Positions 4,560 through 29,557 of a stretch of 64,000 nt of DNA are shown one piece after another. The notes under the pieces are model-generated. The model worked only from the letters and a program-made list of their open reading frames with translations. It was not told the origin of the DNA and ran no database searches. The DNA comes from Cellvibrio sp. KY-YJ-3 (lineage in GTDB: Bacteria > Pseudomonadota > Gammaproteobacteria > Pseudomonadales > Cellvibrionaceae), in the NCBI RefSeq assembly GCF_008806955.1, contig NZ_CP031727.1:868001-932000 (forward strand), given 5' to 3'. The translations under genes were made by a program, and so were the position numbers. Each line of letters begins with the position of its first letter. Position 1 is the first letter of the stretch.

Positions 4560-5825
4560 TTACTCGTCTTGCAGCGCGACAATCGGATTCACAGTTGCTG
4601 CTTTTGCGGCAGGCATCAGTGAAGCCAGGAACCCTGAAAAAATTAATACTGCTACGGCGCTCAGGGCGGTATTAAAATCCACCTCCGGGTTGCGGAACAT
4701 GCCGGCACTACCGCCATTGGCTTCCATCAGCATATTGATACCTTCCAATAAAAGTACGCCCATTACCAAGCCGAAATACCCGGCAATGGCGGTGATAAAA
4801 ACTGACTCTTGTACAATCATGCCAATAATGGATGCCGGTGTTGCGCCAAGTGCTTTGCGCAAACCAATTTCCCGGGTGCGCTCTTTCACTACAATCAACA
4901 TAATATTGCCCACACCAATTGCACCGGCCATAATGGTGCCAATCGCTACAATCCAACTGAACACATTAATACCGGTGAACAAACCGTAAATTTTGTCGAA
5001 TTCATTTTGCAAATTAAAACTGCCCAATACACCCATATCATTTGGATCAACTTTATTGCGCGCGTACAAATATTTTTTTACATCCGCTTCTGCGACAGCG
5101 GCATGTATGCCTGCTGGCGGAATTACCACAAAACTGCCCACCCAATCCGCTTGGTTAAAAGCGTAGCGCAACGTGTCATTGGGAATATAAACCTTTTCTT
5201 CTTCAGCACTGTTGGGATTAGTCGAGCTGGATTTATAAACGCCCACTACCTGAAAACTAATACCCGCCAAGGTAATATCCGCACCAACTGCATTTTCCCC
5301 CTGCTTAAACAAAATCTCTTTTACGCGAGTGCCGATGATTGCCACCTTGCGGCGCTTGTTATCATCTATTTCATTGATATAACGGCCTTCCACAATTTTT
5401 TGTTGGTGGATATTCGCCATGCCCGCATGGGTACCTTGAATGGGAAAGCTGCCATTATTTTTTTTGTATACCGTGTAGGCTGGTGAGCCATCCCAAATTC
5501 CCACGCTATTTTGCGCATAAATTCTGTCTACACTCGGCACATTGTTTTTAATCGCTTCGACGTCATCTACTTTCAAACGGATTTGCCGGCCAACCGGTAA
5601 ACCTTGATAAGCCAGTTGTGTTGGGCTTTGCGACCAGATCCACACTGCATTGGGAATTTCTTTAAAATCTTCCACCACCCCATTTTCCAAGGCTTTACCG
5701 GCACCGAGCAAAACAGTGAGCATAAAAATGCCCCAGAACACACCAAATGCCGTAAGTGTGGTACGCATTTTATGCTGATTAAGGGTGAGGAAAATTTCCT
5801 GCCACTTTTCGGTATCTATTAACAT
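4560..5825 (-). CDS. MacB/FtsX-type ABC transporter permease (type A copy 1)
   Basis: A 421-residue permease. I use ATG 5825 (MLIDTEKWQEI) rather than the upstream ATG 5858, because 5825 aligns with the paralogue starting at 9265, follows a TAAGGG site, and avoids overlap with the preceding stop. It has one N-terminal transmembrane helix ('TLTAFGVFWGIFMLTVLLGAG'-like), a large MacB periplasmic core domain (about residues 50-270), then three C-terminal helices. These flank the FtsX signature 'VVKERTREIGLRKALGAT'. The end 'AATVNPIVALQDE' is the usual family end. It is close in sequence to the 8003-9265 gene and less close to its direct neighbour, indicating an old pair duplication. It probably heterodimerises with its neighbour. 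Confidence 0.9.
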   Translation of the reverse strand: MLIDTEKWQEIFLTLNQHKMRTTLTAFGVFWGIFMLTVLLGAGKALENGVVEDFKEIPNAVWIWSQSPTQLAYQGLPVGRQIRLKVDDVEAIKNNVPSVDRIYAQNSVGIWDGSPAYTVYKKNNGSFPIQGTHAGMANIHQQKIVEGRYINEIDDNKRRKVAIIGTRVKEILFKQGENAVGADITLAGISFQVVGVYKSSSTNPNSAEEEKVYIPNDTLRYAFNQADWVGSFVVIPPAGIHAAVAEADVKKYLYARNKVDPNDMGVLGSFNLQNEFDKIYGLFTGINVFSWIVAIGTIMAGAIGVGNIMLIVVKERTREIGLRKALGATPASIIGMIVQESVFITAIAGYFGLVMGVLLLEGINMLMEANGGSAGMFRNPEVDFNTALSAVAVLIFSGFLASLMPAAKAATVNPIVALQDE

Positions 5826-12855: not shown

Positions 12856-12899
12856 CAATAATTGAACAATATTATTGCTATAAAATTCAATTTATTGAA
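12856..12899 (+). promoter_or_regulatory. Putative Lrp-type operator and -10 region
   Basis: CAATAAT (12856-12862), 8 bp, ATTATTG (12871-12877) is a perfect 7-bp inverted repeat. Right after it come TATAAA (12879-12884) and a second repeat TTCAAT-TT-ATTGAA (12886-12899). They lie 32-75 bp before the regulator's ATG, in the gap shared with leuA. AT-rich dyads are usual for Lrp/AsnC binding. Autoregulation is inferred. Confidence 0.5.
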
Positions 12900-12930
12900 A
12901 TTTAATTTCCATCATATGGAGTTTATCGCT

Positions 12931-13395
12931 ATGGAACTCGACCGTTACGACCGTTTGATACTGGAAGCCTTACAGCGCGATGGCCGCATCTCCAACCAGG
13001 AATTGGCCGACAGTATCAGCCTGTCGCCCTCCCCTTGCCTGCGCCGCGTGCGCGCACTTGAGGAAGCGGGGCTGATCGATGGTTATGTCGCGCTACTCAA
13101 TGCACGCAAACTCGGGCTGACATTGGTGTCATTCATCCAGATCAGCATGGATAAACACACCCCGGACAGGTTTGATTCCTTTGAAAAAACGGTAGAAGCC
13201 TACCCCGAAGTGTTGGAATGCCACTTGATCACCGGGCAGTCGGCGGATTACCTGTTAAAGGTCATAGTGAAGGATATGGATGCTTATCAACAATTCCTGC
13301 TGCAAAAACTCACCCGCATCGAAGGGGTGAGCGGGGTGCATTCGTCGTTTGTGCTGAAATCGCCCATTGATAAAACGGCGTTGCCAGTGGGATGA
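12931..13395 (+). CDS. Lrp/AsnC family transcriptional regulator
   Basis: 154 residues from ATG 12931 (MELDRYDRLILEALQRDGR), chosen because GGAG lies 9 bp upstream and because Lrp-family proteins begin this way; ATG 12862 would add 23 AT-coded residues. The N-terminal winged helix-turn-helix is 'ISNQELADSISLSPSPCLRRVRALEEAGLI', the typical AsnC_HTH. The C-terminal RAM domain (about residues 70-145, 'VLECHLITGQSADYLLKVIVKDMDAY') binds amino-acid effectors and mediates octamer formation. It is divergent from leuA across 297 bp and may respond to a branched-chain or other amino acid. The target set is inferred only from position. Confidence 0.9.
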   Translation: MELDRYDRLILEALQRDGRISNQELADSISLSPSPCLRRVRALEEAGLIDGYVALLNARKLGLTLVSFIQISMDKHTPDRFDSFEKTVEAYPEVLECHLITGQSADYLLKVIVKDMDAYQQFLLQKLTRIEGVSGVHSSFVLKSPIDKTALPVG

Positions 13396-16843: not shown

Positions 16844-17290
16844 TTATAAGATCTTTCTTTCCTCTGCACTAATCTTCACATCGTTAATACTCGCAAAACG
16901 TCGCTGCATTAATCCATTTTCAGCGAACTCCCAATTTTCATTACCATAAGAACGAAACCATTGCCCTTCGGCATCGTGCCATTCATATTCAAAACGCACC
17001 GCAATGCGATTTTCAGTGAATGCCCACAATTCTTTTTTCAGGCGATAATCCAGCTCTTTGTTCCACTTCGCTTGCAAGAATTTAACGATAGATTCACGCC
17101 CGGAAAAAAATTGATCGCGGTTGCGCCACTCACTGTCCGGCGTGTAAGCCAGTGCAACACGTTCGGGGTCGCGGCTATTCCAGGCATCTTCCGCCGCTTG
17201 TACTTTTTTTAGCGCCGTTTCTGCCGTGAATGGAGGAAACGGCGGCCGGGGTACAACGGCTGTTAAATCCACAGCGGATTGCACATTCAT
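16844..17290 (-). CDS. NTF2-like (DUF1348) family protein
   Basis: 148 residues with a nuclear transport factor 2-like fold: '[41 protein letters not shown]', then '[35 protein letters not shown]'. The second stretch is the DUF1348 pattern. NTF2-like proteins are small cone-shaped folds used as enzymes or ligand-binding modules; no catalytic role is assigned. It begins 5 bp after the cynS stop codon, so it is the last gene of the cyanate operon and presumably serves it, perhaps in handling cyanate, carbamate or a related toxic small molecule (inference). Confidence 0.85.
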
Positions 17291-17295
17291 AATGA

Positions 17296-17736
17296 TTACC
17301 AGGCTTTGTAGGGCAGGAATTTGCCATTGAGATTGATGACCACCCGATCACCTTTTGGGTTTTCTTCTTTGCCAATTTCCATGGAAAAATCAATCGCGCT
17401 CATAATGCCGTCACCAAATTTTTCGTGAATGATTTCTTTAATTGTCGGGCCGTAAACGCCGATCATTTCATACAAACGATAAATCAACGGATCTTGCGGA
17501 ACATTCGGTTCCCAACTTTTACTGGGGCATTGCATCAATGCAATTTTGGCAGCTTCCGGTAAATCGAACACTTTGCACAGCGCTTCCGCTTTATCCGCCG
17601 GCGCGCTGTTCATGCCCAAACAGACCGAGGTGGTCCACACTGGTGACATGCCAATGCTCTCTGCAACACCTTCCCACGTCAGGTTCATTTTTTGTTTGGC
17701 GATAACAATGGCTTCTACAACGTCTTGCTTTTTCAT
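17296..17736 (-). CDS. cynS: Cyanate hydratase (cyanase)
   Basis: 146 residues from ATG 17736, preceded by TGAGGAAA; the longer frame start at 17760 overlaps cynD and is rejected. Cyanase converts cyanate and bicarbonate to ammonia and CO2 through carbamate. The N-terminal HTH-like helical domain (residues 1-70) precedes the catalytic domain. Arg87, Glu90 ('[11 protein letters not shown]') and Ser113 ('[12 protein letters not shown]') correspond by a constant offset to the E. coli active-site residues Arg96, Glu99 and Ser122 (established for the family). The end 'GKFLPYKAW' resembles the usual cyanase C-terminus. It lies between the transporter ATPase gene and the DUF1348 gene in one operon under the sigma-54 promoter at 21001-21016. 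Confidence 0.97.
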
Positions 17737-17746
17737 AGTGGTTTCC

Positions 17747-18631
17747 TCAGGCATTAACAAGTTGATTAACAGGTGTCGATTGCTCGACTGATGGTTGGTC
17801 TAGCGGATTTACACTGATCGGGAATTCATCGCACGCAGAATTTTTAGTAAAGGTTTTTGAGCGCTTCACTAAAAACTCCACCAGATGATTGCGAATGGTG
17901 TAATAACCGGGGTGATGAATTATTTCGGCGCGTTTACGCGGCTTGGGCAAATCCACCACCACCGATTCTGCAATCACCGCGCCCGGCCCATTGCTCATTA
18001 ATAAAATTCGATCCGATAATAAAATGGCTTCATCGATATCGTGGGTAATCATAAAAACCGTTTGGCGAGTTTCGCTGCAGATATTCACTAGCTCGTCTTG
18101 AATCACGCCGCGAGTTAATGCATCCAGGGCGCCAAAGGGTTCGTCGAGTAATAATAATTTTGGTTGGGTAGCAAAGGCGCGAGCGATGGAAACTCGCTGG
18201 CGCATACCGCCGGATAATTGCGCGGGTTTGCGCTGTTCAACACCTTGTAAACCGACCATGGTTAAATAGCGCAAACTATGGGTGCGAACCGCTTCTTTAC
18301 TCCATTGTGGCCAGCGAGCGCGCACACCAAACATCACATTGTCGAGCGCACTTAACCAGGGCAATAGCGAATAATTTTGAAACACCACACCGCGCTCCAA
18401 ACTCGGGCCACTGACTTCGCGGCCATCCATAATCACTACGCCTTCAGTGGGTACATCCAAACCGGCGAGGGTATTCATGATGGTCGATTTGCCGCAGCCC
18501 GAATGGCCAATAATGCAAACGAACTCGCCTTTCTCAATCGTAAAATTGGCTTGCTCAAATACGGTGAGTGTTTCTTGCTTTGATACAAAACGTTTCGCCA
18601 GTTGTTGAACTTGTAAAAAAGATTGGCTCAT
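17747..18631 (-). CDS. cynD: Cyanate/nitrate-type ABC transporter ATP-binding protein
   Basis: 294 residues from ATG 18631 (MSQSFLQVQ), with a GGAG site; the 25 codons upstream in frame overlap the permease gene. Motifs: Walker A 'GHSGCGKST', signature 'LSGGMRQRVSIARA', Walker B 'LLLLDEPFGALD', H-loop 'ITHDIDEA'. It belongs to the NrtD/CynD/SsuB/TauB group of importer ATPases. Position between the permease and cynS, the same gene order as the cyanobacterial cynABDS cluster, argues for cyanate as substrate. A roughly 60-residue C-terminal tail past the usual 'FL...' end is compositionally plain. Confidence 0.9.
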   Translation of the reverse strand: MSQSFLQVQQLAKRFVSKQETLTVFEQANFTIEKGEFVCIIGHSGCGKSTIMNTLAGLDVPTEGVVIMDGREVSGPSLERGVVFQNYSLLPWLSALDNVMFGVRARWPQWSKEAVRTHSLRYLTMVGLQGVEQRKPAQLSGGMRQRVSIARAFATQPKLLLLDEPFGALDALTRGVIQDELVNICSETRQTVFMITHDIDEAILLSDRILLMSNGPGAVIAESVVVDLPKPRKRAEIIHHPGYYTIRNHLVEFLVKRSKTFTKNSACDEFPISVNPLDQPSVEQSTPVNQLVNA

Positions 18632-18635
18632 TCCA

Positions 18636-19463
18636 CTACTCCTCGTATTGGACCAATTTGGTAGCGGCAGTGAGTGCCATATCCAACAACATGCCCACCA
18701 GGCCAATCATCAGGATGGAAAAAATCACACTGGTTAAATCCAGGTTATTCCATTCATTCCACACGTAGTAACCAATCCCGGTTCCACCAACCAACATTTC
18801 GGCAGCGACAATGACCAACCAGGCGATGCCGATAGAAATGCGCATGCCGGTTAAAATAGTCGGTGCCGCTGCCGGTAAAATAACGGTGAACGCCGTGCGT
18901 AAAGGTGATAGCTCATGAGTGCGTGCAACATTGATCCAATCTTCACGTACATTCGCTACACCAAATGCGGTGTTCAATAACATCGGCCAAATGGAACAAA
19001 TAAAAATCACAAAAATTGCCGAGGTTTCTGAATCCTTAATAATGAACAGCGCAAGTGGCATCCACGCCAGGGGTGAGATGGGGCGCAATACTTGAATATA
19101 GGGATTTAATGCGCGGTACATGAGCGGCGACATGCCGATTAAAAATCCCACTGGCAAGGCAATGATTATTGCGAGAAAAAATCCGCTCAGTACGCGATAA
19201 AGTGAATAGCCGAGTTGAATACCTATACCTTTATCGTTGGGGCCCGCATCGTAAAAAGGATTGCGCAGTTCTTCCCACGCGCGCACTAACACCGCCGAGG
19301 GTGGCGGCACGCGCGCTTCTTGTTGCGCACCGCCCATGAGCAATTCATATTCCGATTGCGCTTCACTGGCCGCTGGCGCTTGTGAGGAAAACTCCCACAG
19401 GCCCAGCACCAACACCAGAAAACTCAGCGACACCAGCAGCGCACGCAGGTTAAGTGAACTCAT
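18636..19463 (-). CDS. cynB: Cyanate/nitrate-type ABC transporter permease
   Basis: 275 residues with six predicted transmembrane helices. The BPD_transp_1 core has the EAA-like loop 'NVAREDWINVARTHELSPLRTAFTVILPAA'-type region around residues 170-200, and the segment 'RISIGIAWLVIVAAEMLVGGTGIGYYVWNEWN' typical of NrtB/SsuC/TauC permeases. The N-terminus has one helix and then a soluble insert (about residues 30-70, 'APAASEAQSEYELLMGGAQQEARVPPPSAV'-like; periplasmic by inference) longer than in SsuC. It is spaced 2 bp from the binding-protein gene and 4 bp from the ATPase gene, so it is tightly coupled. Confidence 0.9.
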   Translation of the reverse strand: MSSLNLRALLVSLSFLVLVLGLWEFSSQAPAASEAQSEYELLMGGAQQEARVPPPSAVLVRAWEELRNPFYDAGPNDKGIGIQLGYSLYRVLSGFFLAIIIALPVGFLIGMSPLMYRALNPYIQVLRPISPLAWMPLALFIIKDSETSAIFVIFICSIWPMLLNTAFGVANVREDWINVARTHELSPLRTAFTVILPAAAPTILTGMRISIGIAWLVIVAAEMLVGGTGIGYYVWNEWNNLDLTSVIFSILMIGLVGMLLDMALTAATKLVQYEE

Positions 19464-19465
19464 AT

Positions 19466-20905
19466 TTAACCCCTGCGAATTGGAAAACTATTGATGTATT
19501 CATCCGGCTTGGTGTAATCGAACTCTTTGCCCATGATGAAATAGTTTTTGTTGGTGCTGGTGGGAACGGCATAACCCAGTTCTTTCATCACCTTTTCACA
19601 ATCGGTTGCGAGATAAACCTGACCCGCGATGGTCTGGTAGTCCACTGCGCCTTTGATATATCCCCAGCGCTTCATTTGGCTGAGAATCCATACCGCCATG
19701 GAGTGCCAGGGGAAAGGATCAAAGTCGATGCGGTCGGGCACATTTTTCACCTCACCCAAACCATCGGCGTAGCGGCCCAGCAGCACCTGTTCAATAACTT
19801 GCACGGGTTGGTTGAGATAATTGGCGGGGGCAATCGCGGCGGCAATTTCCTTGCGATTTTCTGCCTTGGAAGAATAATGGGTCGCTTCCACAATCGACTT
19901 GAGCAGCGCGCCATAGGTGTTGGGATTGGTCAGCGCAAATTCCTGGCTGCAGGCAAAAGCGCAACAGGGGTGGCCATCCCAAATATCTTTGGTGAGGGTG
20001 TGGATAAAACCGACTTTTTCCCATACCGCCCGCTGGTTAAAAGGGTCGGGCGAGAGGTAGCCATCGAGGTTACCGGCGCGCAAGTTCGCGACCATTTCCG
20101 GCGGCGGCACTACGCGGATCTGCACATCCTGATCCGGGTCAAGGCCGTGTTCGGCGAGGTAATAACGCAGCAAAAAATTGTGCATGGAAAATTCAAAAGG
20201 CACGCCAAATTTAAACCCCTTCCACTGCTTGGGGTCGCGTTTATCCTTATGGTCTACATGCAACACAATCGCCTGGCCATTGATATTTTCCACCGCCGGC
20301 ATAATGAAATTTTTGGCGGTTGAGCCGATACCTAAACTCATCGCCAGTGGCATGGGCGTCAACATATGCGAGGCATCGTATTCACCGGCGAGGGATTTAT
20401 CGCGCGCCACGGCCCAGCCCGCAGTTTTAATGACCTCCACCTCCAAGCCGTGTTTGGCATAAAAACCCATGGGCTGCGCCATGATAATCGGGGTGGCACA
20501 GGTGATAGGGACAAAACCGACGTTGAGTTTTTTCTTTTCCAGCGGACCGCCCGCTTCTTGCGCCGCCGCTTTAATCGCCGCCATGGGCAGTACCGAGGAG
20601 AGCGCGGCGGCGAGGGTGCCGCCACCTACCGCACGAATAAAACGACGGCGGCCGTGATCGTCCTGATTAAACACCGCGCGCACTATGGCGTTTTCAATAA
20701 CACGATCCATCACCGCTTCGCTGGAACCTAAATCCCCATCCGCCGATATTGAATCCACCCGGGCGTATTGCTCTGCCTGTTGTTCCAAAGCCTGTGAATA
20801 GGCACGGTTATCTGCCCCCAGGCGACAGGTATCGCAATGGCAACCACGCTGGTGAATCAATGAGGTTTCGCTGCTGTATGCATCACCCAAACTTTTATCG
20901 CTCAT
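19466..20905 (-). CDS. cynA: Cyanate/nitrate-type ABC transporter substrate-binding protein with Tat signal
   Basis: 479 residues from ATG 20905, preceded by AAAGGGGG. It belongs to the NrtA/CmpA/CynA family: 'KKLNVGFVPITCATPIIMAQPMGFYAKHGLEVEV' opens the mature two-lobe domain at about residue 125, and 'DGYLSPDPFNQRAVW' and 'GHPCCAFACSQEF' follow. Signs of twin-arginine export are 'GRRRFIRAVGGGTLAAAL' at 85-102. Unusually, 84 residues precede the Tat motif, including 'RGCHCDTCRLG' (20-30), three closely spaced cysteines that could bind metal or sit in the cytoplasm before export. It is first in the operon, 95 bp from the sigma-54 promoter. Substrate assignment to cyanate rests on linkage to cynS. 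Confidence 0.9.
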   Translation of the reverse strand: MSDKSLGDAYSSETSLIHQRGCHCDTCRLGADNRAYSQALEQQAEQYARVDSISADGDLGSSEAVMDRVIENAIVRAVFNQDDHGRRRFIRAVGGGTLAAALSSVLPMAAIKAAAQEAGGPLEKKKLNVGFVPITCATPIIMAQPMGFYAKHGLEVEVIKTAGWAVARDKSLAGEYDASHMLTPMPLAMSLGIGSTAKNFIMPAVENINGQAIVLHVDHKDKRDPKQWKGFKFGVPFEFSMHNFLLRYYLAEHGLDPDQDVQIRVVPPPEMVANLRAGNLDGYLSPDPFNQRAVWEKVGFIHTLTKDIWDGHPCCAFACSQEFALTNPNTYGALLKSIVEATHYSSKAENRKEIAAAIAPANYLNQPVQVIEQVLLGRYADGLGEVKNVPDRIDFDPFPWHSMAVWILSQMKRWGYIKGAVDYQTIAGQVYLATDCEKVMKELGYAVPTSTNKNYFIMGKEFDYTKPDEYINSFPIRRG

Positions 20906-21000
20906 AACGCCCCCTTTGTATGCATGCACGCACCAACACTTGGCGACGCGCTGAATCAATGAAAAATCCGGAACTTGCGTTGACTAGCTACAAGGCTTAT

Positions 21001-21016
21001 TGCGAGCCCCGTGCCA
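21001..21016 (-). promoter_or_regulatory. Sigma-54 promoter of the cyanate operon
   Basis: Read leftward, TGGCACGGGGCTCGCA matches the sigma-54 consensus TGGCACG-N4-TTGCW at every defined position except one (TCGC for TTGC), with correct GG-to-GC spacing. It is about 95 bp upstream of cynA and divergent from a sigma-54 activator gene. Confidence 0.85.
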
Positions 21017-21080
21017 ACCTCTTAATTTTTCGTAATTGACTGATTTTTAAGGGGATTTTTTATTATTACGGGAAACGATA

Positions 21081-21137
21081 ACAACGAAAAATCGTGACTC
21101 ACGAAATTTCGTTCAGCTTGGCACGATTTTTCGTTGT
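21081..21137. promoter_or_regulatory. Large inverted-repeat operator, probable enhancer site for the sigma-54 activator
   Basis: ACAACGAAAAATCGTG (21081-21096) and CACGATTTTTCGTTGT (21122-21137) form a perfect 16-bp inverted repeat. Between them lies a third, fully palindromic site ACGAAATTTCGT (21101-21112). All share ACGAAA-T-TCGT-like halves about 20 bp apart. They lie 65-136 bp upstream of the cyn sigma-54 promoter, the usual distance for enhancer binding, and just before the activator gene, allowing autoregulation. Confidence 0.8.
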
Positions 21138-21195
21138 ATTAGCTGGTGTGTATTCACTCAACCACCACCTACCGCATCCAGCAAGGGGATCCTCT

Positions 21196-22758
21196 GTGAG
21201 CAACCTGCCCTGCCCAGTCCATCACTCCGTCGCGCAGCATCAATCCACTACTGCTATGTCGGCAATTACCCAGGTATTCCAACAATTTGAACAGCAGAAC
21301 CAACTGATCCTGAATGCGGCGGGTGAAGGTATTTATGGTGTGGACGCTGAAGGGCGCGCCACCTTCGTCAACCCGGCGGCGGAGCGGATTCTAGGCTGGA
21401 AGGCGGAGGAACTGATTGGTAACAATATTCATTTGGCGATTCATCACAGCCATAACGACGGCTCGGATTATTGCGTTCAGGACTGCCCGATTTTTGCGGC
21501 GTTTCACGATGGTACGGTGCGCCGTGTGGATGATGAAGTGTTTTGGTGTCGCGATGGCCACCCGGTGCCGGTGGAGTACACCAGTACCCCGATTTTTGAT
21601 CAGGGTAAACGGGTGGGAGCGGTGGTTATTTTTCGTGACGTATCGGAGCGTAAAAGCGCGCAGGAAAAATTGCACTCCACCATGGAAGAATTACGTCTGG
21701 CACTGGAACAGGTTGAACAGCTCAAACACAAACTGGAACTTGAAAATGCCTATCTGCAACAGGAAATCAGTGAGAGTTTCAGCTCCCATCATATTGTGGG
21801 TAAAAGCCATGCTGTGCAGCAGATTAATCACCAAATTCAATTGGTCGCGCCCACGGTAGCCACGGTATTGATTACCGGTGAGTCAGGCACGGGCAAGGAA
21901 TTGATCGCACGCGCTATTCACCGCGCCAGTGAACGCAACCAGCGCCCGTTGATTCGCGTGAATTGTGCGGCTATTCCTCCGGAACTGTTTGAGAGCGAAT
22001 TTTTTGGCCATGTGCGCGGTGCATTTTCCGGCGCCGTGAGCGCACGCATGGGCCGCTTTGAAGTTGCCGATGGCGGCACCCTCTTTCTCGATGAAGTCGG
22101 CGAATTACCACTGGCGTTACAGGGAAAATTATTGCGCGTATTGCAGGATGGAGAATTTGAACGGGTGGGCGAATCTATCACCCGCAAGGTGGATGTGCGG
22201 GTAATAACGGCCACCAATCGTGATTTAAAACAGCGTGTTGAACAGGGTTTATTCCGCGAGGATTTGTATTTTCGCCTGAATGTTTTTCCCATCCGCTCGG
22301 CACCGCTGCGCGAGCGGCTGGAAGATATACCACTGCTGGTTGCGCATTTTTTACAGGCCACCTGCCAGCGGTTTCACAAAACAGCGCTTAAAATTTCCCT
22401 CGCCCAAATCCAACGCCTGCAGGCCTACCACTGGCCAGGTAATATCCGCGAGTTGGAAAACCGCATCGAACGGCAGGTAATTCTCAGCCAGGGCGATAAA
22501 TTAGTACTGGATGACCTCCCGCAATACCAACAAGCCAGCCAACTGCCACTTCAATTAGCGAGCGAGACACTGACCGAACAGGATTGTCGCCAGATGCAAT
22601 ACCAGGCAACGCTGGATGCGTTAGTGCGCACAGGCGGGAAAATTTATGGCGTGGATGGTGCGGCGCAATTACTGGGTATCAAACCCACTACCCTTGCCTC
22701 GCGCTTGAAAAAATTAGGGATAAACCGGCAACAGCTATTGGCTGCGTACCCGCAATAA
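21196..22758 (+). CDS. Sigma-54-dependent transcriptional activator with PAS domain
   Basis: About 520 residues from GTG 21196 (AGGGG 8 bp upstream). A GTG at 21094 would start inside the operator, and ATG 21256 lacks a ribosome-binding site. The PAS domain (about 35-150) includes 'AAGEGIYGVDAEGRATFVNPAAERILGW' and a Cys/His-rich core 'HHSHNDGSDYCVQDCPIF'; a short coiled coil follows (155-195). The AAA+ domain has Walker A 'TGESGTGKE' (about 228), GAFSGA (275-280) in place of the usual sigma-54-contacting GAFTGA, and Walker B 'TLFLDEVGEL'. A Fis-like HTH ends it ('DGAAQLLGIKPTTLASRLKKLGI'). There is no receiver domain, so sensing is probably by the PAS domain. It likely controls cynABDS. Confidence 0.9.
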   Translation: MSNLPCPVHHSVAQHQSTTAMSAITQVFQQFEQQNQLILNAAGEGIYGVDAEGRATFVNPAAERILGWKAEELIGNNIHLAIHHSHNDGSDYCVQDCPIFAAFHDGTVRRVDDEVFWCRDGHPVPVEYTSTPIFDQGKRVGAVVIFRDVSERKSAQEKLHSTMEELRLALEQVEQLKHKLELENAYLQQEISESFSSHHIVGKSHAVQQINHQIQLVAPTVATVLITGESGTGKELIARAIHRASERNQRPLIRVNCAAIPPELFESEFFGHVRGAFSGAVSARMGRFEVADGGTLFLDEVGELPLALQGKLLRVLQDGEFERVGESITRKVDVRVITATNRDLKQRVEQGLFREDLYFRLNVFPIRSAPLRERLEDIPLLVAHFLQATCQRFHKTALKISLAQIQRLQAYHWPGNIRELENRIERQVILSQGDKLVLDDLPQYQQASQLPLQLASETLTEQDCRQMQYQATLDALVRTGGKIYGVDGAAQLLGIKPTTLASRLKKLGINRQQLLAAYPQ

Positions 22759-23149: not shown

Positions 23150-25591
<2,442 letters not shown>

Positions 25592-25620
25592 TCAGTAGCG
25601 ATCAGCAACAGGCTGATGAC

Positions 25621-26745
25621 TTATTCATTCAATCCAGAAACCAGAACTTCACTGATTTCTTTTACCCTTCCCTGTTCCACGTGGAACATTTTAGGGATTA
25701 GGTTTTCTATATCACGCCAACTGGATAAAAGTGCTTCCTGTTCAACACCAGTGATAAAAATCTGGGTTTGCATCGCATGAAGCCAATGCACCAACAGTTT
25801 GCGATGTTTTTCATCCAACTCAGCCGGTAAATCATCCACGAGATAAATAGACTTACGCCCTGTCATACGGCTAAACACATAACCTTGGGCGATCTTTAAT
25901 GCACAGACCAGTAACTTTTGTTGGCCACGAGATAGCAATTCAGCTGCGTCTTGACCATTCACCGTTATTTTTAAATCTGCCCTGTGGCTTCCCATCTGGG
26001 TATACCCCAGACGCTGATCCCGTTCAAAACCCTCGGCGAGTATATCGCTATAGTCTCGCTCTTTATCCCAGCCGCGATAATAACTGAGCTTGATGCCCTC
26101 CACCTTAACAAACTCATGCAGCAGCTCGGAAAGGTTAGATTCAAACTCCGCCATGCAGGCAGTACGTAACTCATGTATTTTTTCAGTGAGAATGACTAAT
26201 TCCTGATCCCAACTGGCTAATTCAAAGCGGTCTATTCTATCACGCCGCAACAGGCTATTGCGGTGTTTGAGGCAACGTTGAATAGCCTTCCATGCGGGAT
26301 AGAATTGAGGTTCCACGTGGAACACCAACCAATCGATAAACTGTCGACGAACCTTGGGGCTGCCTTCCAATAATAAAAAAGTATCGGAATTAATAACTTG
26401 AACAGGCAGATAAGCCGCAAGGTCAGCTGCAGAGGAAACAATCGCTCCATTGGCTTTGAAGCTGGCTTCGCCATCCATTGAGCGGGTAATACCAATGGGT
26501 ACCTCTGAATGGTCATCGGTATGCACACGACCAAACACGGTAAAGGCTTGTTGTTGATGGCGGATTAGGGGTTTGTGTTTATGGCTACGGAAAGATCGAC
26601 CTAAAGCCAAGAGGTTTATAGCTTCCAGAATACTAGTTTTACCCGAGCCGTTTTCACCAAAGATGAGATTCACCTGCGCCGAGGGAAGGATATCAACCCC
26701 TTCAAGATTGCGCAGGTTTTGAATAAAAAGACGTTTGAGGGTCAT
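25621..26745 (-). CDS. recF: DNA replication and repair protein RecF
   Basis: 374 residues, an SMC-like ATPase that helps load RecA at single-strand gaps with RecO and RecR. Walker A 'FGENGSGKTSILEAI' is at about residue 31, the signature region is 'LLSRGQQKLLVCALKIAQG', and Walker B is 'IYLVDDLPAELD'. Length and end are normal for the family. Two palindromic parS sites (25673-25688 and 26310-26323) are embedded in the coding sequence, encoding the 'FHVEQ' and 'FHVEP' peptides. It starts 36 bp after dnaN. Confidence 0.97.
   Translation of the reverse strand: MTLKRLFIQNLRNLEGVDILPSAQVNLIFGENGSGKTSILEAINLLALGRSFRSHKHKPLIRHQQQAFTVFGRVHTDDHSEVPIGITRSMDGEASFKANGAIVSSAADLAAYLPVQVINSDTFLLLEGSPKVRRQFIDWLVFHVEPQFYPAWKAIQRCLKHRNSLLRRDRIDRFELASWDQELVILTEKIHELRTACMAEFESNLSELLHEFVKVEGIKLSYYRGWDKERDYSDILAEGFERDQRLGYTQMGSHRADLKITVNGQDAAELLSRGQQKLLVCALKIAQGYVFSRMTGRKSIYLVDDLPAELDEKHRKLLVHWLHAMQTQIFITGVEQEALLSSWRDIENLIPKMFHVEQGRVKEISEVLVSGLNE
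25673..25688. other. parS: parS centromere-like site 1 (inside recF)
   Basis: TGTTCCACGTGGAACA, a perfect 16-bp palindrome matching the bacterial parS consensus bound by ParB (Pseudomonas form). It lies about 13 kb from parB and 4 kb from the dnaA-rpmH gap. Confidence 0.95.
26310..26323. other. parS: parS centromere-like site 2 (inside recF)
   Basis: GTTCCACGTGGAAC, a perfect 14-bp palindrome; the 16-mer differs from site 1 by one base (first base G for T). It lies 637 bp from site 1. Confidence 0.93.
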
Positions 26746-26781
26746 ATGACCGGCAGGAATGGCTTATACCAATGGCCTCTC

Positions 26782-27885
26782 TTAGAGGCGCATTGGCATA
26801 ACAACATAGAGAGAGTCGCTGTTTTCCGGCTCTTCCAGCAATGCACTGGAGTTAGCATCCGACAGAGTAATTTTCACATTTTCGTTACTGATCACATTGG
26901 TCACATCTTGCAAGTAGCTCACATTGAAGCCTACTTCCAGAGAATCACCGGTGTAATCCACAGTCACTTGCTCTTCTGCTTCTTCCTGCTCGGGGTTATT
27001 GGCGACTATGGTCAAGCTGCCATCAGACAATAGCAAACGCACACCACGGTACTTTTCGTTGGATAAAATCGCGGTGCGAGCAAAGGCTTGTTTCAACTCC
27101 AGGCGCGAACCTATCACCACTTTATTACCACCGCGCGGTAATACGCGCTCATATTCGGGGAATTTGCCATCCACCAGTTTAGAGGTGAAGGTATAGTCCA
27201 TCGAGGTCACACGGATATGATTGGCACTGAGTACGACTTCAACTTGGGCAGAAGAGTCATCGAGCAAGCGGGATAATTCCAGTACGCCTTTGCGCGGCAA
27301 AATAGCCTGCACAACTTCATTGGCATTAACCGCTACTGCACGTGTACACATAGCCATACGGTGACCATCGGTGGCGACAACACGCAGTTGATCCTGACGC
27401 ACTTCCCACAACATACCATTCAAGTAGTAGCGAACATCTTGCTGGGCCATGGCAAAGGCGGTGCGTTCGATCAAGCGTTTTACTTCTTGTTGTGCACAAC
27501 TGAAACGCAGATTACCGGGGGCATCTTCCACATTCGGGAAATCACCAGCTGGCAAGGTCGACAAGGTGAAACGGCTACGGCCGGATTTCACCAGAATACG
27601 GTTATCTTCCAGGGTAAATTCGATATTGCTGCCATCCGGCAAGGAACGACAAATATCTACTAGCTTGCGCGCCGGTACGGTGATCTCACCGGATTGGCCT
27701 GCTTGCTCGAGGGTGATGCGGCCTACAATTTCCACTTCCAAATCCGTACCGGTCAACGACAATTGATCGCCATTTAATTGAATCAATACGTTCGACAATA
27801 CCGGCAGCGTTTGACGACGCTCCACCACACCAGCTACCAGTTGTAAGGGTTTCAGCAAGGCTTCGCGAGATACGGCAAATTTCAT
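26782..27885 (-). CDS. dnaN: DNA polymerase III beta sliding clamp
   Basis: 367 residues, the usual length of the ring-forming processivity clamp, with three repeated DNA-clamp domains. Diagnostic segments are 'MKFAVSREALLKPLQLVAGVVERRQTLPVLSNVL'-type start, 'LVDICRSLPDGSNIEFT', 'VATDGHRMAMC' and the end 'SDSLYVVMPMRL', which forms part of the hydrophobic pocket that binds clamp-interacting proteins. It lies 88 bp after dnaA in the same direction. Confidence 0.98.
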   Translation of the reverse strand: MKFAVSREALLKPLQLVAGVVERRQTLPVLSNVLIQLNGDQLSLTGTDLEVEIVGRITLEQAGQSGEITVPARKLVDICRSLPDGSNIEFTLEDNRILVKSGRSRFTLSTLPAGDFPNVEDAPGNLRFSCAQQEVKRLIERTAFAMAQQDVRYYLNGMLWEVRQDQLRVVATDGHRMAMCTRAVAVNANEVVQAILPRKGVLELSRLLDDSSAQVEVVLSANHIRVTSMDYTFTSKLVDGKFPEYERVLPRGGNKVVIGSRLELKQAFARTAILSNEKYRGVRLLLSDGSLTIVANNPEQEEAEEQVTVDYTGDSLEVGFNVSYLQDVTNVISNENVKITLSDANSSALLEEPENSDSLYVVMPMRL

Positions 27886-27973
27886 GTGATGGTCTCTTTG
27901 GTAATCTTCCGGGACTTATTTAGGTTTTATCTCAGTGTGCAACAAAGAATGTAATTATCTATTAACAATAAAA

Positions 27974-29557
27974 TCAGGTAGTTAGAGAGCGTAACAAGTT
28001 TTTCATATCCTCGCGGATATCTGCTGTCTCTTCCTGCAATTCTTTAATTTTTCGACAAGCATGCAAAACAGTTGTATGGTCGCGACCACCAAAGGCTTCG
28101 CCTATTTCCGGCAAACTGTGGTTGGTCAACTCTTTCGCCAAAGCCATAGCCACCTGACGCGGACGCGCCACTGAACGACTGCGACGCTTGGAAATCATAT
28201 CGTTCATTTTGATTTTGTAGTATTCACATACAACCCGCTGGATATTGTCGATACCGACTTGTTTATCCTGCAAGGCTAATAAATCTTTCAGGGCTTCACG
28301 CACCAGCTCAACATCAATTGCCCGACCGGTAAAATTGGCGCTGGCAATCACCCGCTTGAGTGCACCTTCCAAATCACGGACATTGGCGCGAATGCGTTGG
28401 GCGATAAAGAAGGCTGCTTCGTGCGGCAGGTCAATATTCACCTGCTCCGCTTTTTTCATCAAAATCGCAACCCGGGTTTCCAACTCCGGCGGCTCAACCG
28501 CCACGGTTAAACCCCAACCGAAGCGCGACTTGAGCCGCTCCTCAAGACCATTAATTTCTTTGGGGAAGCGGTCACAGGTGAGGATAATCTGACGACCACC
28601 TTCGAGCAATGAATTAAAGGTGTGAAAGAATTCTTCTTGTGAACGCTCTTTACCAGCGAAAAATTGGATGTCGTCAATTAAGAGTGCATCCATGGAACGA
28701 TAGTAGCGTTTGAAATCATTGATCGCATTCAGTTGCAGCGCTTTAACCATATCAGCCACAAAACGTTCGGAATGCAGGTAAACCACTTTAGCGTTGGGGT
28801 TCTTGGCAACCATGGCATTGCCCACGGCTTGCATCAAGTGAGTTTTCCCCAAGCCCACACCACCATAAATAAACAAAGGGTTGTAAGCGCCGCCTGGGTT
28901 TTCTGCCACTTGTCGTGCGGCGGCTAGACCCAACTGGTTGGACTTGCCTTCCACAAAAGTCGCAAAAGTCGAACCGGCATTTAAATAATTACTGTGTTTA
29001 AGCCCACCCTCTACCTCTATATCGGCTGCAGCGCGGCCGGGGGTATCGCGGCTGGGAATATCAACTTGCGGCTCTTCGACAACAGCCGCCGCGTTAACTT
29101 CATAATCACTACTTTTAGCAACAAAGTTTGCAGATTTTGGCGAAGATGAATAGGTAGAAACTGCTCGAGGTTCATCATTAGCCGGAACAAAAGATAAATT
29201 ATCAGTCACCGATGACCCTTGGGTGACAAATGCCGCAGACGCGGCGGCTGGAGTCTGGCGCTCAAAACGATTGCTCGCCACGGGTGGCGCCTGAAATCCG
29301 GCGGCAGGACGCGGAGCAACACCAACCGCTACTTGTAGATTGGCGTCCTGATGATAGTGCCCGGCCAGCTCGCGAATACGGTTAAGAAATTTATCTGCCA
29401 CCCAATCGCAAATAAAACGATTGGGCGCTAACAAGCGCAACTCGGAAGGTGCTGCTGATTCATCAATCTGCAGTGGCCGAATCCAGGTATTGAATTGCTG
29501 CGATGGCAACTCATCCTGCAAGCTGGCGGCACATAGTTTCCAAATCGACTGCAGCAA
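27974..29557 (-). CDS. dnaA: Chromosomal replication initiator DnaA
   Basis: 527 residues, somewhat long because of an extended, low-complexity domain II (about residues 90-200, Ser/Ala/Pro/Val-rich). The start is TTG at 29557 (GGGAG 8 bp upstream), giving '[29 protein letters not shown]', aligned with the E. coli start. The AAA+ domain has '[19 protein letters not shown]', '[25 protein letters not shown]' and the arginine-finger region. Domain IV has the DnaA signature '[18 protein letters not shown]' that contacts DnaA boxes. It is the first gene of the leftward operon, with the putative origin directly upstream. Confidence 0.98.

Follow-up and report, generated by a model that had tools for sequence, protein, structure and literature searches.

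A conserved three-dyad element between the cyanate operon and cynF of Cellvibrio sp. KY-YJ-3, a probable enhancer of a CynF-type sigma54 activator

A stretch of 64,000 nucleotides of Cellvibrio sp. KY-YJ-3 (contig NZ_CP031727.1, positions 868,001 to 932,000 of the forward strand; hereafter “the window”, numbered from its first letter) carries a cyanate operon with a cyanase gene, cynA-cynB-cynD-cynS-DUF1348, divergent to cynF, which encodes a PAS-AAA+ sigma54-dependent activator. Read from cynA (start 20905), the gap between the two genes holds a sigma54 promoter, a site resembling those of the integration host factor (IHF), three dyads numbered 1 to 3, and then the start of cynF (21196); all features are listed in Table 1. 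Comparison with related sequences makes it very probable that a CynF-type sigma54 activator uses the three-dyad element as its enhancer, on which a hexamer would be loaded, and that this enhancer has one clear target in this genome.

The original prediction had read the operator as a perfect 16-bp inverted repeat with a palindrome between its halves. Both are indeed there, the arms (21081-21096 and 21122-21137) being exact reverse complements of each other, and the inner 12-mer ACGAAATTTCGT (21101-21112) occurs at one place in the 4.49-Mb genome; the better parse, however, is three tandem dyads ACGA-N4-TCGT and not an inverted repeat enclosing a palindrome. The long repeat appears in the window because dyads 1 and 3 chance to be the A4 and T4 forms of one unit. 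Among the 80 loci used for promoter statistics (see below), the window alone has exact 16-bp arms, and just 4 have a dyad 1 that is the exact inverse of dyad 3; a single long hairpin or inverted-repeat operator was, thus, rejected, the dyads being kept and their inversion not. What had been taken for an unusual three-part operator is, in our reading, a three-dyad enhancer that is also found in distant bacteria.

Table 1. Features of the cynA-cynF region (window coordinates) and of two NitA-type loci (coordinates of the fetched stretches).
Feature	Position	Strand	Remarks
Dyad 1 (promoter-proximal), ACGAAAAATCGT	21084..21095	.	86.5 bp between its centre and the G of the -12 GC
Dyad 2, ACGAAATTTCGT	21101..21112	.	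centre-to-centre 17 bp to dyad 1, 22 bp to dyad 3
Dyad 3 (distal from the cynA promoter), ACGATTTTTCGT	21123..21134	.	within TGGCACGATTTTTCGTTG, found in 9/9 Cellvibrio cyn-linked loci
Predicted sigma54 promoter of cynA, TGGCACGGGGCTCGCA (-24 GG, -12 GC)	21001..21016	-	consensus match, conserved slot
IHF-like site, AATCAGTCAATTA (consensus WATCARNNNNTTR)	21033..21045	-	between promoter and dyads, conserved offset
cynF (PAS + AAA+ sigma54-dependent activator, Fis-type helix-turn-helix)	21196..22758	+	GTG start at 21196 assumed; L1-loop GAFSGA
cynA, substrate-binding protein (NMT1_2)	19466..20905	-	ATG start
cynB, ABC permease	18636..19463	-	family models
cynD, ABC ATPase	17747..18631	-	family models
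cynS, cyanase	17296..17736	-	NF002773 and TIGR00673 above cut-off
DUF1348 (SnoaL-like), last gene of the operon	16844..17290	-	PF07080
NitA-type activator genes, stretches with longer DNA	L162 6704-8650; L163 7285-9225		Nit1C neighbours confirmed there

The relatives of the activator came from genomes of the same genus and, as 80 loci of public genomes, from the best 80 of at least 585 relatives, a sample that leans to close ones. From 98 sequences (97 loci and the window) we dropped two belonging to the genome itself (L001-L002), two taken as duplicates of L015 and L009 (L018-L019) and eight in whose stretch no cyn gene was found (L006, L011-L014, L016, L017 and L047); this left 86 cyn-linked loci, window included, from alpha- and gammaproteobacteria. 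An ACGA-N4-TCGT triple with spacings of 17-18 and 21-23 bp and at most 5 mismatches in 24 positions is present in 83 of the 86 and perfect in 29 (L006 also has a perfect triple, though it stands outside the count), whereas the best of 1290 dinucleotide shuffles had 6 mismatches; L031, L034, L042 and L051, with 5 mismatches each, lie near this limit. The three others (L062, L065 and L083) have the same layout with ACGCA-N2-TGCGT dyads, at 6-7 mismatches out of 36 versus a minimum of 13 in 1290 shuffles. When both spacings were left free (12-30 bp, ACGA dyad), 17-18 + 21-23 was still best in 83 of the 86 loci, namely 17+22 (45 loci), 17+21 (27), 17+23 (8), 18+22 (2) and 18+21 (1), the exceptions being L034, L065 and L083; for the ACGC dyad, free spacing (14-30 bp) gave 17+22 in L062 and L065 and 17+23 in L083. 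The remainder of the gap has mostly diverged among nine aligned Cellvibrio loci. Nine further enhancer-binding proteins (EBPs) were searched with spacings of 16-18 and 20-24 bp allowed, and an ACGA triple with no more than 5 mismatches was found for seven of them. In 15 of 31 alphaproteobacterial cyn loci, a TTGGC motif lies 8 bp before dyad 1.

The sigma54 promoter that had been proposed at 21016-21001 is present as TGGCACGGGGCTCGCA, which agrees with 11 of the 12 specified positions of TGGCACR-N4-TTGCW and would place a -24/-12 promoter upstream of the structural genes. Promoter statistics were drawn from the 80 loci having a 17 + 20-24 triple with at most 5 mismatches: a GG/GC site matching at least 9 of 12 positions lies in the expected 75-bp slot in 79 of them, versus 1.3% of 4000 shuffles, and the one locus without it is, by its outlying distance, L049, where the promoter picked, at a spacer of 164, is probably the wrong one. 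Between promoter and dyad 1, the spacers form classes of 48 bp (1 locus), 57-59 bp (28), 66-71 bp (45) and 82-83 bp (5). Loss of the GG-GC elements or of the ACGAAA repeats among relatives, the outcome that the original prediction had named as speaking against it, is, thus, not what the comparison of the gap returned. Looping at sigma54 promoters is often helped by IHF (PMC7057263), and an IHF-like match (at least 8 of 9 positions, offset 15-17) occurs in 9/9 Cellvibrio loci and in 22 of the 32 other gammaproteobacterial loci with a 66-71 bp spacer; one locus in each of these two groups has such a match elsewhere in the spacer. The strict IHF consensus is found in 12 of the 80 loci, versus 0.6 expected from shuffles. 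Both rpoN and ihfA are found in this genome.

Family models agree with the earlier gene assignments, i.e., the divergent PAS-AAA+ activator and the presence of cynS and DUF1348 in the operon. The cynF product has PAS and Sigma54_activat domains (PF00158, E 6.4e-72), and its Fis-type helix-turn-helix was recognised by eye; the GAFTGA loop motif reads GAFSGA in 10/10 Cellvibrio CynF examined, versus 4 of 98 other EBPs. EBPs homologous to it are encoded divergently from cyn genes in all 85 other cyn-linked loci. The activator of the window is homologous to CynF; as the regulator encoded divergently from the operon, it is a PAS-AAA+ protein and not one of the LysR family, the rest of the window not having been scanned for LysR genes. 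Between dyad 3 and the aligned core of the activator lie 391-557 bp in the 71 non-Cellvibrio loci measured, enough for an N-terminal extension (130-200 in-frame residues in most, counted to the previous stop), and the one cyn-linked relative scanned (L161) has two PAS domains. This distance is just 37-105 bp in 8 of 9 Cellvibrio loci (L010 has 701 bp), and the PAS domain that remains is, therefore, the likely input domain.

Cyanate genes in cyanobacteria are controlled by NtcA, which shares this role with CynF and belongs to another activator family. The same holds for CynR, the LysR-family regulator of the cyanate genes of E. coli (PMC6627978). The original prediction had accordingly presented a sigma54 activator for cyanate as a different wiring; such a wiring is, however, already published for Pseudomonas pseudoalcaligenes CECT5344, where cynF is divergent from cynA at a distance of 268 bp upstream and codes for a putative sigma54-dependent regulator, and where cynA is preceded by a putative sigma54 promoter (PMC6627978). 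There, CynF is essential for the expression of cynABDS, which is cyanate-induced and ammonium-repressed, and a cynF mutant has lost both cyanase activity and growth on cyanate (PMC6627978). The window resembles this system in its divergent sigma54-dependent activator, its cynABDS operon and its putative cynA promoter; it differs in the DUF1348 gene at the end of the operon and in an activator without N-terminal extension. In P. sediminis (L038), the start codons of cynA and cynF are likewise 268 bp apart, as reported for CECT5344, and the gap carries the three dyads; an activator-binding site is not described in the accessible part of PMC6627978, nor is palindrome wording found in its main text. 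A 2025 survey lists cyanate lyase among the sigma54 targets enriched in alpha- and gammaproteobacteria (PMC12316311). Control of the operon by sigma54 and the divergent activator, a pairing first proposed from gene position, is supported because the dyads are present in 86/86 loci, the promoter in 79/80, and the P. pseudoalcaligenes knockout shows the corresponding phenotype (PMC6627978).

The layout resembles that of norVW of E. coli, where three upstream enhancer sites are essential for activation by NorR and provide the scaffold on which a higher-order oligomer, in all likelihood a hexamer, assembles (PMC2941729). Like the cyn operator, norVW has three dyads upstream of a sigma54 promoter with the activator gene divergent. 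The dyads themselves differ (consensus GTCA-N3-TGAC for NorR), and so does the sensor, GAF in NorR and PAS in CynF. With this consensus, the NorR dyads of E. coli K-12 have a proximal spacing of 24 bp and a distal one of 21 bp, versus 17 and 22 bp for CynF, and the proximal dyad lies 74 bp from the -12 G. The NorR dyad and spacing (GT-N7-AC, 24/21) are not those of the cyn operator, which may, by analogy, act like the NorR enhancer yet is no NorR operator.

The same array can be looked at from the cynF side. In 34 of 40 non-Cellvibrio gammaproteobacterial loci (e.g., L024, L026 and L052), a sequence of the form TGGCAY-N5-TTG points to cynF and starts 3-6 bp after dyad 3 (threshold of at least 7/9, reached by 3.4% of shuffles). 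The -24 GG and the -13 G are retained in this second sigma54-like element, whereas the -12 C is absent in 31 of the 34; a C follows the TTG in just 3, L052 among them. On the cynA side, the same relaxed search, requiring only GG, returned C at that position in 79/80 loci, and the contrast between the two sides is, therefore, no product of the search. In 9/9 Cellvibrio loci, TGGC runs straight into dyad 3, and no TTG is found at that spacing. These sequences suggest a sigma54-related promoter belonging to cynF itself, its -12 element being weak. A sigma70 promoter has been proposed for cynF in P. pseudoalcaligenes CECT5344 (PMC6627978); a sigma70 promoter conserved across relatives was tried as a candidate and rejected, as no common -10 was seen by eye after TTGGCA.

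One has to consider, with this element and with dyad 3 so close to the cynF start, that the dyads could be an autorepression operator, at which CynF or another repressor would block the cynF promoter, cynA being activated through other, weaker sites. We regard this as improbable: the array has a fixed polarity and a few fixed distances to the promoter on the cynA side, and in L155 and L156, two loci with a CynF-like EBP from genomes without cyanase, similar arrays lie away from the EBP start, adjoining other genes and sigma54-like sites. Autorepression and activation can, moreover, coexist on the same dyads. The arrays of these two loci (ACGA-type, at most 1 mismatch per dyad; 4645-4695 and 6882-6910 in L155; 2570-2619, 7077-7105, 10943-10971 and 11472-11521 in L156) are near genes for an alpha/beta hydrolase, DUF3187, TM_HPP and ChrR-cupin, and perhaps mark a related regulon.

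Going back to the array as an enhancer, its layout is also met at activators with another half-site. Cellvibrio genomes contain EBPs about 56% identical to the window activator (L011-L014 and L016; a sixth, L017, runs off its contig), and at the five readable loci no ACGA triple was found at the level of cyn loci (7-9 mismatches, even with wider spacing allowed). In the two for which longer DNA was at hand, L162 (genome of L014) and L163 (genome of L012), the EBP gene is divergent from a Nit1C nitrilase cluster (TIGR04048, TIGR04043, TIGR04045, TIGR04049, TIGR04046 and TIGR04044), an arrangement that matches NitA as described in PMC11049912; the Nit1C neighbourhood is, thus, confirmed for two of five. 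All five carry three TACGCA-N2-TGCGTA-like sites spaced 18 + 23 bp, at 3-4 mismatches out of 36, and the same spacing comes out when it is left free. The 18-bp pair is nearer the sigma54 promoter, whose G lies 141.5, 120.5, 141.5, 141.5 and 142.5 bp from the first site. NitA/Nit1C is, thus, like CynF in its sigma54 promoter on the far side, its three dyads and its related activator; it is unlike it in the dyad, in an enhancer 120-142 bp from the -12 element and in the neighbouring nitrilase genes. The two arrays are spaced alike; their layout is, thus, preserved across a change of half-site from ACGA to ACGC.

In a FastTree tree of 68 EBPs and NorR, in which support for the deeper branches is weak (0.683 for the cyn group), ACGC-type operators turn up at three separate places, namely in the NitA group, at L062 with L065, and at L083. 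The cyn loci L062, L065 and L083 apparently represent at least two separate changes of half-site. A recognition-helix residue setting ACGA versus ACGC was sought and rejected, the PTTLxSR helix being common to both types and no diagnostic change being seen among the rows compared (25 of 98 ACGA-type and all 8 ACGC-type). We tentatively put forward, as a possibility for which the odds are rather against us, that CynF and NitA belong, with their relatives, to a single EBP subfamily in which hexamer geometry would set a conserved layout (promoter, proximal pair at 17-18 bp, distal site at 21-23 bp) and the dyad sequence would vary by paralogue or lineage, the gammaproteobacterial enhancer also serving a back-to-back, sigma54-like promoter of cynF, which without its -12 C would act as a weak or leaky self-controlling switch.

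The specificity of the operator was addressed by reverse searches of whole genomes with a double-dyad pattern of 16 fixed bases, its backward version being the control. The double dyad was found in 7 of 369 gammaproteobacterial genomes (backward control: 0), with a CynF-like EBP gene at or near a site in all seven. In three (G000, G385 and G204), a cyanase gene is no more than about 4 kb away from it; in the four others (G131; G157, with three copies; G366; G187), no cyanase was found at the threshold used. The EBP gene beside the ACGA triple of G187 (L158 6931-9682) is split over more than one reading frame, by a frameshift or a sequencing error. Two of 289 alphaproteobacterial genomes gave a double dyad: the Bradyrhizobium genome that served as centre, and G609, in which its neighbours are an EBP gene and, by eye, cynABD-like genes. 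In the genome of the window there is no second site above control (at up to 3 mismatches, the backward pattern has 21 matches per strand versus 4 for the pattern itself), and a multi-operon regulon was rejected here, the next best pair, with 2 mismatches, lying inside an open reading frame taken by eye for kdpD. Whole-genome searches of 18 relatives gave a single pair (at most 1 mismatch) in 14, placed by its coordinates within the fetched cyn locus, and none in 4. Cyanase-bearing genomes amount to 50 of the 369; a CynF-like EBP was found in at least nine of them (G000 and eight of 13 listed) with a strict threshold that may miss some, and lies within about 6 kb of cynS in 8 of these 9. CynF-type wiring, thus, looks like a minority among cyanase-bearing gammaproteobacterial genomes.

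These searches also bear on the idea that the dyads bind a nitrogen regulator such as NtrC for ammonium control, CynF binding elsewhere. Ammonium repression of the operon in Pseudomonas (PMC6627978) would fit it; an exact double dyad present once in this genome does not, as a global regulator should have many sites (no search was aimed at those of NtrC), nor do the CynF-like EBP at or near a site in all seven gammaproteobacterial genomes and the ACGC-type dyad at all five readable NitA-type loci, and we hold this alternative to be very improbable. As for chance palindromes, which A+T richness of the gap alone would favour, they have practically no likelihood left, being already refuted by an array found in 86/86 cyn-linked loci beyond shuffles within otherwise mostly diverged Cellvibrio gaps.

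The mechanism that we propose is that three CynF dimers would bind the three ACGA-N4-TCGT dyads, whose centres are separated by 17 bp in the promoter-proximal pair and by 22 bp in the distal one, and would together load one AAA+ hexamer; IHF would bend the DNA between enhancer and promoter, and the hexamer would contact the sigma54-RNA polymerase waiting at 21016-21001, resulting in transcription of cynA-B-D-S-DUF1348. The PAS domain is likely the cyanate input. Binding of CynF to the dyads is predicted from sequence comparison; a single hexamer on three dyads is probable by analogy with NorR, and the IHF bend is suggested by the conserved IHF-like site. Several points weigh against enhancer function or its parts. 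Dyad conservation alone does not name the binder, which may be a co-inherited second regulator; the loci are phylogenetically related, so their counts are not independent events; L034 favours a 23+16 layout once spacing is free; no clear triple was found at L170 (G212, about 12 kb from cynS) or L171 (no cyanase), each with 7 mismatches; and the promoter spacers, while falling about one helical turn apart in the other classes, do not do so in the 82-83 bp class. The IHF-like site is missing at its offset in 29 of 31 alphaproteobacterial loci, in 10 of the 32 gammaproteobacterial loci of the 66-71 bp class and in 5/5 loci of the 82-83 bp class; IHF cannot, therefore, be general, and was rejected as a universal component.

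The genes behind the operator vary between loci. A DUF1348 gene adjoins cynS in the window and in 11 fetched non-Cellvibrio loci (L021, L022, L031, L036, L039, L044, L050, L057, L069, L082 and L093), a count to be read with some stretches too short to reach that far, and DUF1348 is a recurrent, uncharacterised partner of cyanase. The cynS gene comes directly behind the operator in L018 and L019 (5258-5737), as well as in the shorter Cellvibrio stretches L004, L008, L009 and L015, and no cynABD was found in the 13.5-kb stretches of L018 and L019; in L019, a converging Lrp-like gene (by eye) comes next, and a similar gene is found at 12862-13395 of the window. In L160 (3716-4528) and L023 (4019-4882), a gene for a formate/nitrite-type transporter (PF01226), perhaps an alternative cyanate importer, stands beside cynS in place of cynABD, behind the same operator. 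On its other side, cynF is neighboured in the window by gyrB-, recF-, dnaN- and dnaA-like genes (23150-29557, by eye), and the cyn cluster, therefore, sits beside the likely replication-origin region.

The wiring of cyn genes by sigma54 and CynF is already known, and what the operator adds to it is a conserved three-dyad enhancer; in the literature searched, we found no description of this enhancer, of its layout shared with NitA, or of the cynF-facing element. The regulatory role of CynF was known from mutants, and the operator now offers a concrete putative binding element for it. The double-dyad pattern marks CynF-like activators, even though four of the seven gammaproteobacterial genomes having it are without cyanase. 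CynF would be the second family in which three dyads of near-fixed spacing, here unlike that of NorR, seem to load one sigma54-activator hexamer, and a comparison of CynF with NitA offers a way to ask how a half-site can change under constant enhancer geometry.

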